A stretch of 64,000 nucleotides of DNA from Abditibacterium sp. (GTDB lineage Bacteria > Armatimonadota > Abditibacteriia > Abditibacteriales > Abditibacteriaceae), in assembly GCA_030448265.1 (NCBI GenBank), contig JAUJNG010000006.1:70967-134966 (forward strand), written 5' to 3'. Positions 21,344 through 26,991 of the stretch are shown here, piece by piece. The position numbers and the translations under genes are program-made. The notes beneath the pieces were generated by a model that had not been told where the DNA came from, searched no databases, and saw only the letters and a program-made list of their open reading frames with translations. Every line of letters starts with the position of its first letter. The stretch's first letter is position 1.

Positions 21344-21531
21344 GCTCTCTTGGCTCGACTGAAGTCGGCGCTGTCGGGCCTGCGGCCAACTTTGCGCCTT
21401 CGCGCAAAACACAGCAAACGACGTCAACAGGTCTACGGTCTCCTCTATCTCGTTGGCCACACTCTGTTTGCGCGAAGGCGCAAAGTTGGCCGCAGGCCCG
21501 ACAGCGCCGGCTTCAGTCGAGCCAAGAGAGC
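21344..21531. repeat. Long inverted repeat, ~65-nt arms with about 1 mismatch
   Basis: gctctcttggctcgactgaagtcggcgctgtcgggcctgcggccaactttgcgccttcgcgcaaa and reverse complement at 21467-21531. Confidence 0.92.
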
Positions 21532-21560: not shown

Positions 21561-22412
21561 TCACTCACTGGGAATTCGTTCCAGAAGACCCTCGCCAAAA
21601 GTTTGGTCGAGATGCAGCCTTTCCAGATGCACATAACCGATGTGGCAGCCGCAAGTCGCGTTGGGACAGAGGCGCGGCTGTAAAATGCGCTCCCAATCTT
21701 CGTCGTAGAGATTGCCCAGTGGGGTTTTGACGAAATGACAGCGCCGAATCGTGCCGTCTCCATCGACGGAAATCACGCTTTCTCCGGTGCGACACGCCTG
21801 GCCCGCGCTGGCGTGGCGCACGTTGTTGAGCGGGAAAAGCCGGTCGATTTGAGTCAGAAATTCGATTTCCTCGCCCGCGTAATAGCCCTCAATGCGTTTG
21901 AACGCATTGACCCACAGATAAACATCGCTCGGCAACGCGGCGCGCAACGCTTCGATGGCGCGGAAGTGTTCTTTCAAGCCAACGACGCCGACGCTGAAAC
22001 GCACGCCGCGCGAGCGCATTTGCGCCACGCGATTGAGAAATTCGTCGTGGGTGGTCTGGTCGGGGTGATAAGTGACCCACAAACCGAGGCGCGCTTTGTC
22101 GCACCCTTCCGCCCACTCGAAACGGCACGATCCGTTGGTTTGAATCGCCACTTTTCGCACACTTTGCGCGTTGGAGAGGCGCGCGAGAGCCTTCTGATAG
22201 CGCGAACGCACCAGCGCCTCGCCCCAGGGCGTGAAAAAGACGGAAATCTCGCGTCCCATCTGACCTTCGACCCAGGCCACGAACCGTTCCAGAGCGAACG
22301 CATCGGCGGCGTGCTGGGCGTCGCTTTCGACTCGTTTGGCGAAGGGGCAGTAGTCGCAGGCGTAGTTGCAGCTCGAAAGCGGCCCGCGATAGAGAATGGT
22401 GAGCGGTTTCAT
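21561..22412 (-). CDS. STM4011-like radical SAM protein
   Basis: LTILYRGPLSSCNYACDYCPFAKR (CxxxCxxC), GTIRRCHFVKTPLGNLYD, CPNATCGCHIGYVHLERL; ATGA overlap with the upstream gene. Confidence 0.82.
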   Translation of the reverse strand: MKPLTILYRGPLSSCNYACDYCPFAKRVESDAQHAADAFALERFVAWVEGQMGREISVFFTPWGEALVRSRYQKALARLSNAQSVRKVAIQTNGSCRFEWAEGCDKARLGLWVTYHPDQTTHDEFLNRVAQMRSRGVRFSVGVVGLKEHFRAIEALRAALPSDVYLWVNAFKRIEGYYAGEEIEFLTQIDRLFPLNNVRHASAGQACRTGESVISVDGDGTIRRCHFVKTPLGNLYDEDWERILQPRLCPNATCGCHIGYVHLERLHLDQTFGEGLLERIPSE

Positions 22413-23740
22413 CGCAGCGAAAATCCCTCCATTTGCTCGCGCACGCGCGCCGAAGCCAGCCAGGGGCCTAAAACATCCGACCATTCGAGTCCCTCGGGCG
22501 TGGGACGCAAAACTTCGCCGTCGTCGCGCGCCAGATCGAGCGCTTCGAGTTCGCCAAGCTGCGGGAAATCGTCGCGCGCCGAAGTGCCGAAATATCTTTC
22601 GTAAGCATGCCAGTTCAAACCGTCGATTTGCAGCAGCGACTGGATGAGATAGCGCCTTCGCTGTTCTTCGGCATCGAGTTCAAAGCCGTAATCGCAAAAG
22701 CGAAACGAAGGCTCGTCGCGGTCGAGATAATGGCCCAGAATAGCGCGCACGCCCTGCGCACCGACGGCATACTCGGTCGAGTAGTGCAGCGCCCGCGTGT
22801 AGGAGCGCGCTCCGGCGCCCAATCCGACCATGCCATCCTGCTGACAGCAATAATGCGGGCCGTTCATATCGGCAACGCCGGCGCGTTGAAACATTCGCAT
22901 TGAAATCTGGCGAAAACCGTTTTCGAGCAAATAATCGCGTCCGGCCCGATAAAGTTCGAGCTGCGAATTATCTGCTGCCGCGCCGCGCTTGCCCAGTCCG
23001 GTCAGGGGGCGCACATAAAGCGGATAAAGATAAATTTCATCCGGCGCGAAGTGCAGGGCTTCCCAAAGCGAGTGAAGCCAGCTTTCGCGCGTCTGTCCCG
23101 CCGTGCCGTAAATCAAATCGAGGTTGAAAATCGGAAAATTCGCCGCGCCGATGCGTTCCAGAGCGCCGCACAGTTCCTCGCTTTTCTGGGGACGGCCCAG
23201 CGCGCGAGTTTCGACTTCGATAAATGACTGCACGCCAATCGAAACCCGCGACACGCTGCGATTTTTCAGAATTTGCAACCGTTCGGGCGTCGCGGTGGCG
23301 GGCGAAGTCTCGACCGAACTCGGAATCTGCGCGGGATTCGCCCCGAAATAGCGCGCGGCGAGATCGAAGAGCCGCTCCAACGCGTGCGGCGAAAGAATGG
23401 TCGGTGTGCCGCCGCCAATCGCCATGCGCGCGAACTGGCCGTCGCCGATTTCGCTGGCGACAGCGCGCATCTGGCGTTCGAGCGCGTCCAAAAAGCGTTC
23501 GTGCGCCGCCGCGTCGCGCTCGATGTGCGTGAAGAGGTTGCAAAAGCCGCAGCGCATTTCGCAAAACGGGACGTGCAAATAGAGAAAGCGCGCCGCGTGT
23601 GGTTCATGTTTCCACACTTCGCGCAACGCGCGCGGCGCGAGCGGGCGATAAGCGGTTTTGTGCGGATAGGAATAAGCGTAGGAGGCGAAGGGCGTCGCGC
23701 TCAAAAGCGTTTGAAGCGGCGGGGATTCGAGGGTTGGCAT
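22409..23740 (-). CDS. STM4012-like radical SAM protein (HemW/coproporphyrinogen oxidase-like)
   Basis: YLHVPFCEMRCGFCNLFTH (CxxxCxxC), GGGTPTILSPHALERLF, VSIGVQSFIEVETRALGRPQ. Confidence 0.85.
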   Translation of the reverse strand: MPTLESPPLQTLLSATPFASYAYSYPHKTAYRPLAPRALREVWKHEPHAARFLYLHVPFCEMRCGFCNLFTHIERDAAAHERFLDALERQMRAVASEIGDGQFARMAIGGGTPTILSPHALERLFDLAARYFGANPAQIPSSVETSPATATPERLQILKNRSVSRVSIGVQSFIEVETRALGRPQKSEELCGALERIGAANFPIFNLDLIYGTAGQTRESWLHSLWEALHFAPDEIYLYPLYVRPLTGLGKRGAAADNSQLELYRAGRDYLLENGFRQISMRMFQRAGVADMNGPHYCCQQDGMVGLGAGARSYTRALHYSTEYAVGAQGVRAILGHYLDRDEPSFRFCDYGFELDAEEQRRRYLIQSLLQIDGLNWHAYERYFGTSARDDFPQLGELEALDLARDDGEVLRPTPEGLEWSDVLGPWLASARVREQMEGFSLR

Positions 23741-23745
23741 GGGGG

Positions 23746-23840
23746 ATTTGAATAGCAGCGAGGCGGTGTTTGACGCGACATACATTCTTTCAGCGTCGAA
23801 TTTTGTGGGTCATTTGAATAGCAGCAAATCGGTGTTTGAC
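23746..23840 (+). repeat. Direct repeat pair (23746-23774 and 23812-23840)
   Basis: atttgaatagcagcgaggcggtgtttgac vs atttgaatagcagcaaatcggtgtttgac. Confidence 0.75.
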
Positions 23841-23984
23841 CCCTCCCCGACCCTCCCCACCAGTGGAGAGGGAGTCAGACTGGCATTTGCTCGTTTTTAC
23901 TCGAACTGTCAATAAAACGGAGCACGTTGACGCTCGACTCCCTCTCCACTGGTGGGGAGGGTCGGGGAGGGGTCGAACACCGAT
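23827..23984. repeat. Long inverted repeat, perfect 39-nt core arms
   Basis: gacccctccccgaccctccccaccagtggagagggagtc / exact reverse complement; extends outward as aatcggtgtttgac/gtcgaacaccgatt. Confidence 0.92.
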
Positions 23985-23995
23985 TCGCAGAGTCA

Positions 23996-24819
23996 CTAAC
24001 TCACGCGCGGCAAAACCAATTCCGCATAAGGCACGTTCCACACGCTGGGATGGCTCAGACGATGGCCCTGGAAACCGTCCTCGCCATAAGCTGTGCCGTG
24101 ATCGGCACACATCACCGCCAGAAGCGGCGCGCGGCGGCGCAGCGCCTCGAAAAGCGGCGCCAACTGCCATCGACATAAGAGAGCGCCTGCGCCATCGTCG
24201 CGGGCGTATCGCGCGTCGCGTGAGGCGTGAAAATGCAGTTGGGCTGGTGCAGCGCCGAAATATTGAGGAACAAAAACACCCGCCGCGAAAGTGGAATTTC
24301 GGCCAGAATTTGCTGGGCCAACTCGGCTTGATGGCGCGTCGAATGCGGCGATGTCACGCCCATTTCTTCGCTCCAATGGCTTTCGCGGAACAGGTTCGGC
24401 AAAACACTGCCGAGCGGCGTCTGCTTGTTGAAAAATCCCACGCCGCCGATGCAAATCGTGTGATAACCCTGTGATTCGAAGCCGCTCACGATGTCGGCGC
24501 TTTCGAAAACGGCGGTGGCCGCAGTCGTGGTTTCGCTGCCGCCAAAACGCGCCGCGAAGAGGCGCGGGTGAAGGCCAGGAACGGCGGGCGTGGGCAGAAA
24601 TCCGGCGAAAAAAGCGTGATGCGCGGCGTAGGTGAAACTGCCTGGCGAATGGCGCATCTGCCAGCCCTCGCGCGGCAGCAAACTCCCTAAAAAGGGCGTT
24701 TGGCCGCTCGCCCACGCTTCGCGCGCCACGTCGTAGCGCAGCGTATCGAGCGAAAGAAACAGCACGTCGTGAGTGCCAACGAGGGCGCGGGCGTTGAGAG
24801 GGGAATCGAGCATCAGCAA
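23996..24819 (-). CDS. STM4013/SEN3800-like sulfatase-fold hydrolase, apparent frameshift near 24164-24172
   Basis: Frame 1 MLMLDSPLNARALVGTHDVLFLSLDTLRYDVA...TMAQALSYVD, continuing in another frame as QLAPLFEALRRRAPLLAVMCADHGTAYGEDGFQGHRLSHPSVWNVPYAELVLPRVS. Confidence 0.78.
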
Positions 24820-24852
24820 AGCTTTAAAGGATTCTCAGTGGGAGTGCTTCCC

Positions 24853-24918
24853 TGGGAGCGCAGGAATCCTTGCCCGTTTGAAATTCATTCCATGCGGGCA
24901 AGGATGCCCGCGCTCCCA
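24853..24918. repeat. Inverted repeat (gggagcgc...caaggat family)
   Basis: tgggagcgcaggaatccttgcccg ... cgggcaaggatgcccgcgctccca. Confidence 0.8.
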
Positions 24919-26057
24919 AAATACGCAACGGCGCGAATCTCGTCTTCGTAAGTGTCGCGGCCCTCGCAGCGTGCGTCGGGCAGCAAATCGCCCCAGGCGT
25001 TGAGTTCGATGATCGCGTGGCGGCGAAAATCGGGCGAAAAAACGAGGTCGGCGCCGCCCATCAAACTGTGCGGATACGCGCGCATCGCCGCTCCGCACGA
25101 CGCCACAATTTCGCCCCATTTCTCTTCTGTGAGGCGACTTTTCAAGGCTTCGAGCGGCGCGCGCTCGTTGCCGAGATGCAAATTCGTGAGCGGCCCGCGC
25201 GATAGCCGCACCTTACCCTGCCGCGCCTGTCCGTCAATGATGACCAAACGCACGTCGCAAACCCGCCCGCCCAGACTGGCTTTGGGCAGCCATCGCTCGA
25301 CGTGGACGCGCTCACGGCACAGAGCGTCGATTAAAACTTCGACTTCACGCCACGTTTGATAGCGGCGCACGCGGCGCGAGTTGTAAAGCCGAATTTCGCC
25401 GTTTTGCTCGACCATTTCGGTCGTCGTGGTCGCCAAAACGCGGCCTCGACTCATTTGGAGCGCCACCACGCCCGATGCGCTCGATCCGTGCGATAATTTC
25501 ACGAAAACGCGATTCCAGCCGCGCTCTTTCAGCACCGACAGCAGCGCTTCGAAGTTTTCGATCTCCGCTCCCAGCGCCGGAGCCACCGGCACGCCTGCCG
25601 CGAGCAAACGCGCGTGACAGGCGATTTTATCGCTCATTTCGAGGCAGTGGCGCGCGTCGTGCATCGCCCGATGCGGCGGCGCGGCGTCCAGTTCGCTTTG
25701 CAACTCCTCAAACAACGAGCGCAAACCCAGAAACCACTGCCGCGACGGATGCAAACGGCCTCGTTCCTCTTCCAATTGCAGCGCCGCTTCGCTCTCGATG
25801 CAGCGAAACCGATTCTCGCGTTGCGCTTCGCTCGCGCCGCGCGCGAGGAGCAAGCGTTCCACCTCGAAATCGCGCCCTGGCGATTCGATTCGCACCGTAT
25901 CGTCAGCGCGAAGAACCTGTGCGAGCCGCACTTCGCCCCGCAAAAGCGCGGCGTAAGGCACTACGACGGGCGGCGACAGCCCCAGCTTTTGCAGCGCGCA
26001 CTCGAACAACCGCAGGCGGCGGCAGTCGGGATTGGCGAGGACGACAAAACGCGCCAT
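24885..26057 (-). CDS. STM4014-like protein (ATP-grasp-like)
   Basis: CLEMSDKIACHARLLAAGVPVAPAL...VFVKLSHGSSASGVVALQ...HAIIELNAWGDLLPD; position within the cluster. Confidence 0.75.
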   Translation of the reverse strand: MARFVVLANPDCRRLRLFECALQKLGLSPPVVVPYAALLRGEVRLAQVLRADDTVRIESPGRDFEVERLLLARGASEAQRENRFRCIESEAALQLEEERGRLHPSRQWFLGLRSLFEELQSELDAAPPHRAMHDARHCLEMSDKIACHARLLAAGVPVAPALGAEIENFEALLSVLKERGWNRVFVKLSHGSSASGVVALQMSRGRVLATTTTEMVEQNGEIRLYNSRRVRRYQTWREVEVLIDALCRERVHVERWLPKASLGGRVCDVRLVIIDGQARQGKVRLSRGPLTNLHLGNERAPLEALKSRLTEEKWGEIVASCGAAMRAYPHSLMGGADLVFSPDFRRHAIIELNAWGDLLPDARCEGRDTYEDEIRAVAYFGSAGILARME

Positions 26058-26067
26058 GATGCGCCTT

Positions 26068-26991
26068 TTACTCGTTCACCGCGACGTAACGATGAACTTC
26101 GCCGTCCCATTCGTCGCCGCTCTGCGCGTCGCTGACATCGACTTCAAGCGGCAGTTGCTTCAACTTTTCCTGCATCGCATCGGTGCAAAAATGATAATGC
26201 AGGTCGAGTTTTTTCAGCCCGCGCACCAACGGGCTGTCGAGAAGCGCCTGGGCGCCCTCATCGCCCAGCGTTCCCAGCGACAAATCGAGGGTTTCGATGC
26301 GATTGAGAACCGGCGCGGTCACAAGGGCGCCGGCGACCTCGTCGACGATTTCGGCATCGCGCAGCCCCAGATATTTGAGCGCGGGAAAAACTCGGCCCTC
26401 TAAAATCGGCGCCAGGTCTTCAATGGTCACCGTGCCGCCATATTCGTCGGTTCCCAGATAGAGTTCGAGATGCTCCAGAGCGGGCAAATCGGCTTCGCCC
26501 AGAGCGCGCACCACGCCGCCATCGAGTCCGCCGCTTTCGATGACGAGAGTTTTCAAATTGGCGTGACGCGGCGAACCTACCTTCAAACCATCGCCGCCGC
26601 GCGCGCCCAGATATTCGAGGTCGGGAAAAGCCTCCAGAAGCGGCGAAAGATCGGATTGCAGAATCCAGGAGATTTCGTTTTCTTCCGAAACGATGTCGCC
26701 GATGAACAGCGCGCGCAAAGAGGCGAACTGGTCGCGCGCCGCCACAATCGCTTCCACAACAAACGCTGAATTTTGGCTCGACGCGAAATCGTAAGCGCCC
26801 ACCACCAGGCCCGCCAGCGGCCCCGTGTCCACCTCTTCGAGAAACTCCTCGAAAGCGTCCGTCCAGCTCCTTTTGTTCTCGTAATCGTCGTAGTCAATGG
26901 CAACGCGCGGAATCGCGCCGGCGGGCAACGGCTCGCCCGCTTTCCAATCCACGACCGGATGGCCGAGCAAGGTTTCGAGATGATCAATCAT
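26068..26991 (-). CDS. STM4015-like leucine-rich-repeat protein
   Basis: Repeated LxxLExLxL units (PALEHLELYLGTDEYGG, PALKYLGLRDAEIVDEVA, LNRIETLDLSLGTLGDEGAQAL); position within the cluster. Confidence 0.75.
   Translation of the reverse strand: MIDHLETLLGHPVVDWKAGEPLPAGAIPRVAIDYDDYENKRSWTDAFEEFLEEVDTGPLAGLVVGAYDFASSQNSAFVVEAIVAARDQFASLRALFIGDIVSEENEISWILQSDLSPLLEAFPDLEYLGARGGDGLKVGSPRHANLKTLVIESGGLDGGVVRALGEADLPALEHLELYLGTDEYGGTVTIEDLAPILEGRVFPALKYLGLRDAEIVDEVAGALVTAPVLNRIETLDLSLGTLGDEGAQALLDSPLVRGLKKLDLHYHFCTDAMQEKLKQLPLEVDVSDAQSGDEWDGEVHRYVAVNE

Follow-up and report, generated by a model that had tools for sequence, protein, structure and literature searches.

The window analysed here, a stretch of 64,000 nucleotides of Abditibacterium sp. 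DNA (contig JAUJNG010000006.1), encodes on its minus strand, between positions 21561 and 26991, the five co-directional genes of the STM4011-STM4015 set (Table 1). The original prediction for this stretch had described five co-directional genes whose types and order match the STM401x cluster of Salmonella, and they are found as described. The gene order is that of Salmonella, the annotated Salmonella and E. coli copies agree, and all five proteins score over the NCBIfam curated cut-offs that served as threshold for family assignment (STM4013 by its amino-terminal part). The overlap ATGA between the last two genes, STM4012 and STM4011, is likewise seen in the sequence, at 22409-22412. Pfam recognises Radical_SAM and HemN_C in the locus, gives sub-threshold matches to SPASM, leucine-rich repeat (LRR) and ATP-grasp models, and yields none for STM4013.

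Table 1. Features of the STM4011-STM4015 locus, in window coordinates; bits are given as score/cut-off.
Feature	Position	Strand	Basis
STM4015-family leucine-rich-repeat protein, 307 amino acids	26068..26991	-	NF038076, 347/275 bits
Conserved STM4015 C-terminal heptapeptide R-Y-V-A-V-N-E; proposed modification site, especially the terminal Glu	26071..26091	-	Sequence
STM4014-family ATP-grasp ligase, 390 amino acids, LysX/ArgX/RimK-like	24885..26057	-	NF038074, 368/175 bits
STM4013/SEN3800-family alkaline-phosphatase-superfamily hydrolase, frameshifted	23996..24819	-	NF038075, 309/250 bits (N part), 69.8 (C part)
STM4012-family HemN-like radical SAM enzyme, probable start ATG 23740	22409..23785	-	NF006067, 585/380 bits
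STM4011-family radical SAM enzyme, SPASM-like C-terminus	21561..22412	-	NF038073, 397/200 bits
Inverted repeat, 53-nucleotide arms, 96% complementary, between STM4013 and STM4012	23824..23988		Repeat search

Two outcomes had been named as telling against the cluster, namely assignment of its genes to unrelated families and scattering of their homologues in other genomes. The profile searches and a comparison of gene neighbourhoods across phyla were run; since the families are confirmed and co-location holds across phyla, neither is the case. The family assignment as such was already known. The locus is a genuine copy of a widespread and unexplained bacterial gene set, for which a full-text literature search found no functional study. 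The new point is its LRR protein, whose near-invariant terminal glutamate (Glu) makes it probably, as judged from sequence conservation, the substrate or carrier of the pathway.

A scan of genome contigs gave 80 loci, distributed among Chloroflexota, Planctomycetota, Myxococcota, Actinomycetota, Deinococcota, Bacteroidota, Bacillota, Pseudomonadota and others. The five families stand together at most of these loci, and their usual order is 4015-4014-4013-4012-4011; many Myxococcota have 4014 and 4015 divergent from, or far from, the other three. The set is patchy: within the phylum of the window 5 of 291 genomes have an STM4015 above the cut-off, as do 40 of 297 actinomycetes, 2 of 295 Bacteroidia and a single one of the 274 genomes sampled from the gammaproteobacterial class, while 154 of 5426 complete E. 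coli genomes (about 3%) carry the set. All 59 STM4015-bearing genomes encode STM4011, 58 encode STM4014 and 57 STM4013, and the co-occurrence of STM4015, STM4011 and STM4014 holds even where the genes are unlinked. Six genomes without STM4015 have neither STM4011 nor STM4014.

The copies of Salmonella and E. coli resemble the window in the five families, their order and the STM4012/STM4011 overlap. They adjoin typA, with mostly ompL on the other flank, and have after STM4011 a sixth gene coding for a Cof-type HAD-IIB hydrolase. The window copy differs from them by the absence of this gene and by its frameshifted STM4013. One E. coli STM4015 gene is also annotated as frameshifted. Bacteroides finegoldii has, within the examined record, only 4015, 4014 and an STM4011 fused to a HAD-IIB domain.

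STM4015 finishes in a conserved carboxyl-terminal tail that was overlooked in the original prediction, whose LRR identification was correct. The terminal residue is Glu in 151 of 153 distinct STM4015 sequences and Asp in the other two, and all 153 stop there without extension (stop codon at 26068-26070 in the window). The usual motif is R-[YF]-x-x-V-[GSTA]-E-stop, preceded by an acidic linker of variable sequence whose mean net charge is -4.5 from position -20 to position -8. Information content, calculated from 121 non-redundant tails, reaches 4.2 bits at position -1, 3.6 at -6 (Y/F) and 3.2 at -3 (V), and is about 0.6-1.9 bits in the linker at -9 to -20. Variation is found at -2 (G, S, A or T), at -6 (Y or F) and at -7 (R, Y or others). 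E307 is one of the invariant columns of STM4015 (11 of 60), none of which is a Cys.

The pattern [YF]xx[VIL][GSTA]E-stop matches 175 of 9520 open reading frames (ORFs) of at least 100 amino acids, and 173 of these matches are STM4015-type. LRR proteins outside the family mostly lack a terminal E in the same genomes, and no fixed last residue was found when the carboxyl termini of STM4011, STM4012 and STM4014 were compared. Diverged tails keep the Glu, as in Salmonella (YMNAMYTE), E. coli (YMHPMFTE) and Bacteroides (WYYPMITE), and so do the tandem LRR proteins of planctomycetes (YLFEGDYE and others). Tandem STM4015 copies, up to five per locus, have 51-72% identity in their bodies and usually 76-94% in their tails. 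The tail persists in those Myxococcota genomes that carry the LRR gene at a distance from the cluster. It is likely, given the near-invariant terminal Glu, that STM4015 is a substrate or carrier for the other enzymes.

The AlphaFold2 model of STM4015 has an LRR fold, with a predicted local distance difference test (pLDDT) score of 97. Its best Foldseek match is 2RA8, an uncharacterised WGR-LRR protein from Bacteroides fragilis solved by structural genomics, which is itself a member of the STM4015 family (1e-78) with the tail YSYPMITE. 2RA8 differs from the window protein by an amino-terminal WGR domain, and its deposited chain does not stop at the Glu: the alignment reaches 354 of 362 residues, as a C-terminal tag would explain. 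STM4015 proteins from three of the loci also have an amino-terminal WGR domain, which is otherwise found in nucleic-acid-related proteins.

A profile built from 45 STM4014 proteins was compared with the solved structures of the Protein Data Bank. LysX and RimK lead the matches, which are weak but consistent (1e-7 to 1e-6), and the alignment reveals a shared TNLH/SNLH motif. The AlphaFold2 model of STM4014 (pLDDT 94.7) retrieves with Foldseek, in this order, ArgX:LysW (3vpb), PsnB, LysX/ArgX with LysW-gamma-AAA (5k2m), LysX, DcsG and RimK. These closest structural relatives of the modelled protein activate carboxylates on proteins or peptides, in many cases that of a C-terminal Glu. RimK, the ribosomal protein S6 glutamate ligase, belongs to the same structural ATP-grasp group as STM4014, has a similar (S/T)NLH motif and acts on the C-terminus of S6; it is not known to have radical SAM partners. 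LysX and ArgX load the C-terminal Glu of a carrier protein at its gamma-carboxylate, and the amino-group carrier proteins are recognised through acidic residues (PMC9303977). A palindrome with arms of about 23 nucleotides (24855-24918) overlaps the 3' end of the STM4014 gene, and the last dozen residues of the protein therefore seem repeat-derived; the last six have a pLDDT below 50.

STM4011-STM4015 is, with moderate confidence, considered a protein-tail modification or carrier system in which STM4015 would be the substrate and STM4014 would act on its terminal Glu. The biosynthetic or modification pathway first proposed for the locus fits and is supported by these data, and is sharpened in that the precursor is most likely the LRR protein's own tail. 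The separate short precursor ORF that had been suggested was not found: motif scans of all ORFs yielded nothing beyond proteins of the STM4015 type and a few chance matches on the antisense strand.

Four observations weigh against such a system. STM4014, closest to the LysX/ArgX-type ligases by profile and fold, scores below the curated RimK and LysX family cut-offs. No conserved product-releasing peptidase was found among the cross-phylum neighbours, and the reading frames of the window are not all intact, STM4013 being broken. Residues 301-307 of STM4015 are predicted to be ordered (about 92 pLDDT), so part of the tail conservation may be structural. This last observation suits an explanation in which the tail serves as structural cap or docking motif, STM4015 is an adaptor that assembles the enzymes or presents them to a target, and the real substrate is some other protein or a free small molecule. 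LRR domains typically bind partners, and R-7, Y-6 and V-3 resemble packing or recognition residues. Yet a cap or docking motif needs no exact stop at an acidic residue such as is seen in 153 of 153 sequences, the neighbouring ligase groups structurally with enzymes for protein or peptide carboxylates, and the presence at one locus of several diverged LRR copies with like tails suits multiple substrates. An adaptor role of this kind is considered unlikely.

The second radical SAM protein, STM4011, has a CxxxCxxC motif and five further C-terminal Cys (C207, C225, C249, C254 and C256) that are invariant across 47 homologues, in agreement with the extra cysteines noticed in the original prediction. 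Its SPASM domain is below the Pfam cut-off and it matches SkfB weakly. The closest solved relatives of STM4012 are HemN (1olt) and the radical SAM methyltransferase NocN. A HemW or HemN role for STM4012 was rejected, as its scores are below the curated cut-offs of both (154.9/205.4 and 121.5/324.95 bits, respectively).

The SPASM-like carboxyl terminus of STM4011 and its SkfB match, together with the graspetide macrocyclases PsnB and MdnC being among the Foldseek structures closest to STM4014, could also point to intramolecular chemistry like that of ribosomally synthesized and post-translationally modified peptides (RiPPs). Ring closure by the ATP-grasp enzyme in graspetide style, cross-links made by STM4011, or both, would then lead to a peptide-derived cofactor or macrocycle with no added amine. 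The terminal Glu is, however, the sole conserved reactive group of the tail, which leaves it no conserved lactone or lactam partner; the STM4015 tail has no conserved nucleophile, unlike a graspetide-type precursor with its conserved Ser/Thr/Lys and Glu/Asp ring partners, and no short precursor ORF was found. This chemistry is regarded as improbable. SPASM radical SAM RiPP pathways and pearlins, which are carrier peptides, resemble the STM401x set in that enzymes, radical SAM ones included, act on a genetically encoded C-terminal sequence. They differ from it in that the STM401x leader would be an entire LRR domain, and in that the set has no PEARL ligase and no short precursor.

Profile comparison gives STM4013 a sulfatase-like fold, and its conserved metal-site residues are those usual in the alkaline phosphatase superfamily. 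The fold had been predicted correctly, but sulfatase chemistry does not follow from it: all 34 sequences compared have Thr at the nucleophile position, so phosphatase or phosphodiesterase chemistry is likelier. The same fold, and an anaerobic sulfatase-maturation model that is the second-best NCBIfam match of STM4011, would be accounted for if STM4011 resembled an anaerobic sulfatase-maturating enzyme and formed formylglycine in STM4013. Formylglycine requires Cys or Ser where STM4013 has its invariant Thr, which rules out this maturation of STM4013, and STM4014 and STM4015 would be left unexplained; as an account of the gene set it is extremely improbable.

The original prediction recognised the STM4013 gene and missed its one-base frameshift. 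Positions 1-220 of the family model lie in ORF 24112-24819 and the last 53 in another frame, in ORF 23996-24715; the switch between the frames, by a single base, falls at about 24167-24168. In the aligned homologues, a congeneric copy among them, the gene is read in one frame. A true mutation and an error of assembly are both possible causes of the frameshift.

In the proposed mechanism the rigid LRR scaffold of STM4015 would present the acidic linker and the short Glu-ending tail to STM4014, which would activate the terminal Glu carboxylate with ATP and then couple an amine to it. The SPASM-type STM4011 and the HemN-like STM4012 would next modify either the tail or the group attached to it. 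Removal of a phosphate would fall to STM4013, the hydrolase with the Thr nucleophile, joined in some lineages by a HAD phosphatase, and the product might be retained on the protein or be released from it.

By analogy, the STM401x set would operate in the manner of an amino-group carrier system. In the systems formed by LysW and LysX or ArgX a protein likewise ends in Glu after an acidic stretch and has a partner ATP-grasp ligase; both the C-terminal Glu and the preceding acidic linker, whose recognition role is taken from the literature, are present in STM4015. The carrier would, however, be an LRR protein and not the small zinc-binding LysW. STM4015 has the LRR fold, lacks the LysW zinc-binding domain and has no invariant Cys, so the set is not a member of the amino-group carrier family. 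The downstream enzymes differ as well, being radical SAM and phosphatase-type proteins with no adjoining releasing peptidase. The more specific proposal, that LRR proteins are dedicated bacterial carriers or precursors whose C-terminal Glu is loaded by a LysX-like ligase and whose cargo is processed by two radical SAM enzymes and a phosphatase, is advanced tentatively, with a chance somewhat below even.

No conserved sixth gene is universal among the neighbours of the set across phyla. Those found are restricted to particular lineages and code for HAD phosphatases, for DUF6745 proteins with a small His-rich protein, and for MoxR/VWA proteins. The repeated presence of HAD phosphatases beside STM4011 or STM4013, seen in several lineages, suggests that a phosphate is removed at some step. 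The possibility that the HAD protein substitutes for STM4013 in Bacteroides is weakened by Salmonella and E. coli, which possess both.

A DUF6745 LRR-like protein adjoins the STM401x set at 11 loci from several phyla, accompanied in most cases by a small protein of about 100 amino acids with GH[SA]H and HEEH motifs. The DUF6745 proteins end in Y-x-P-x-x-E-[TSA]; their candidacy as second substrates was dropped because a Streptomyces copy lacks the Glu. Genes for MoxR-type ATPases lie beside the set at nine loci, from Xanthomonas, Myxococcota and an acidobacterial metagenome-assembled genome, one of them being the bpMoxR of MoxR-vWA-beta-propeller ternary systems, and a VWA gene is near the set in Deinococcus. 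A link of the MoxR/VWA neighbours to conflict systems is possible. A role in anti-phage defence was rejected, as the proteins tested gave no PADLOC match.

The inverted repeat between STM4013 and STM4012 probably stands outside the system itself. A second one, with nearly perfect arms of 65 nucleotides, is found downstream of STM4011 at 21344-21531. Both look like small mobile or hairpin elements.

The set spans many phyla, Salmonella and E. coli included. If the proposal for it is true, it would represent a new class of carrier-protein-based biosynthesis or of protein tail modification, present from Planctomycetota to E. coli, and would extend the logic of carrier proteins and RiPPs to LRR proteins. 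The near-invariant terminal Glu beside a LysX/RimK-like ligase turns a gene set annotated as of unknown function into one whose role may be tested decisively by mass spectrometry.

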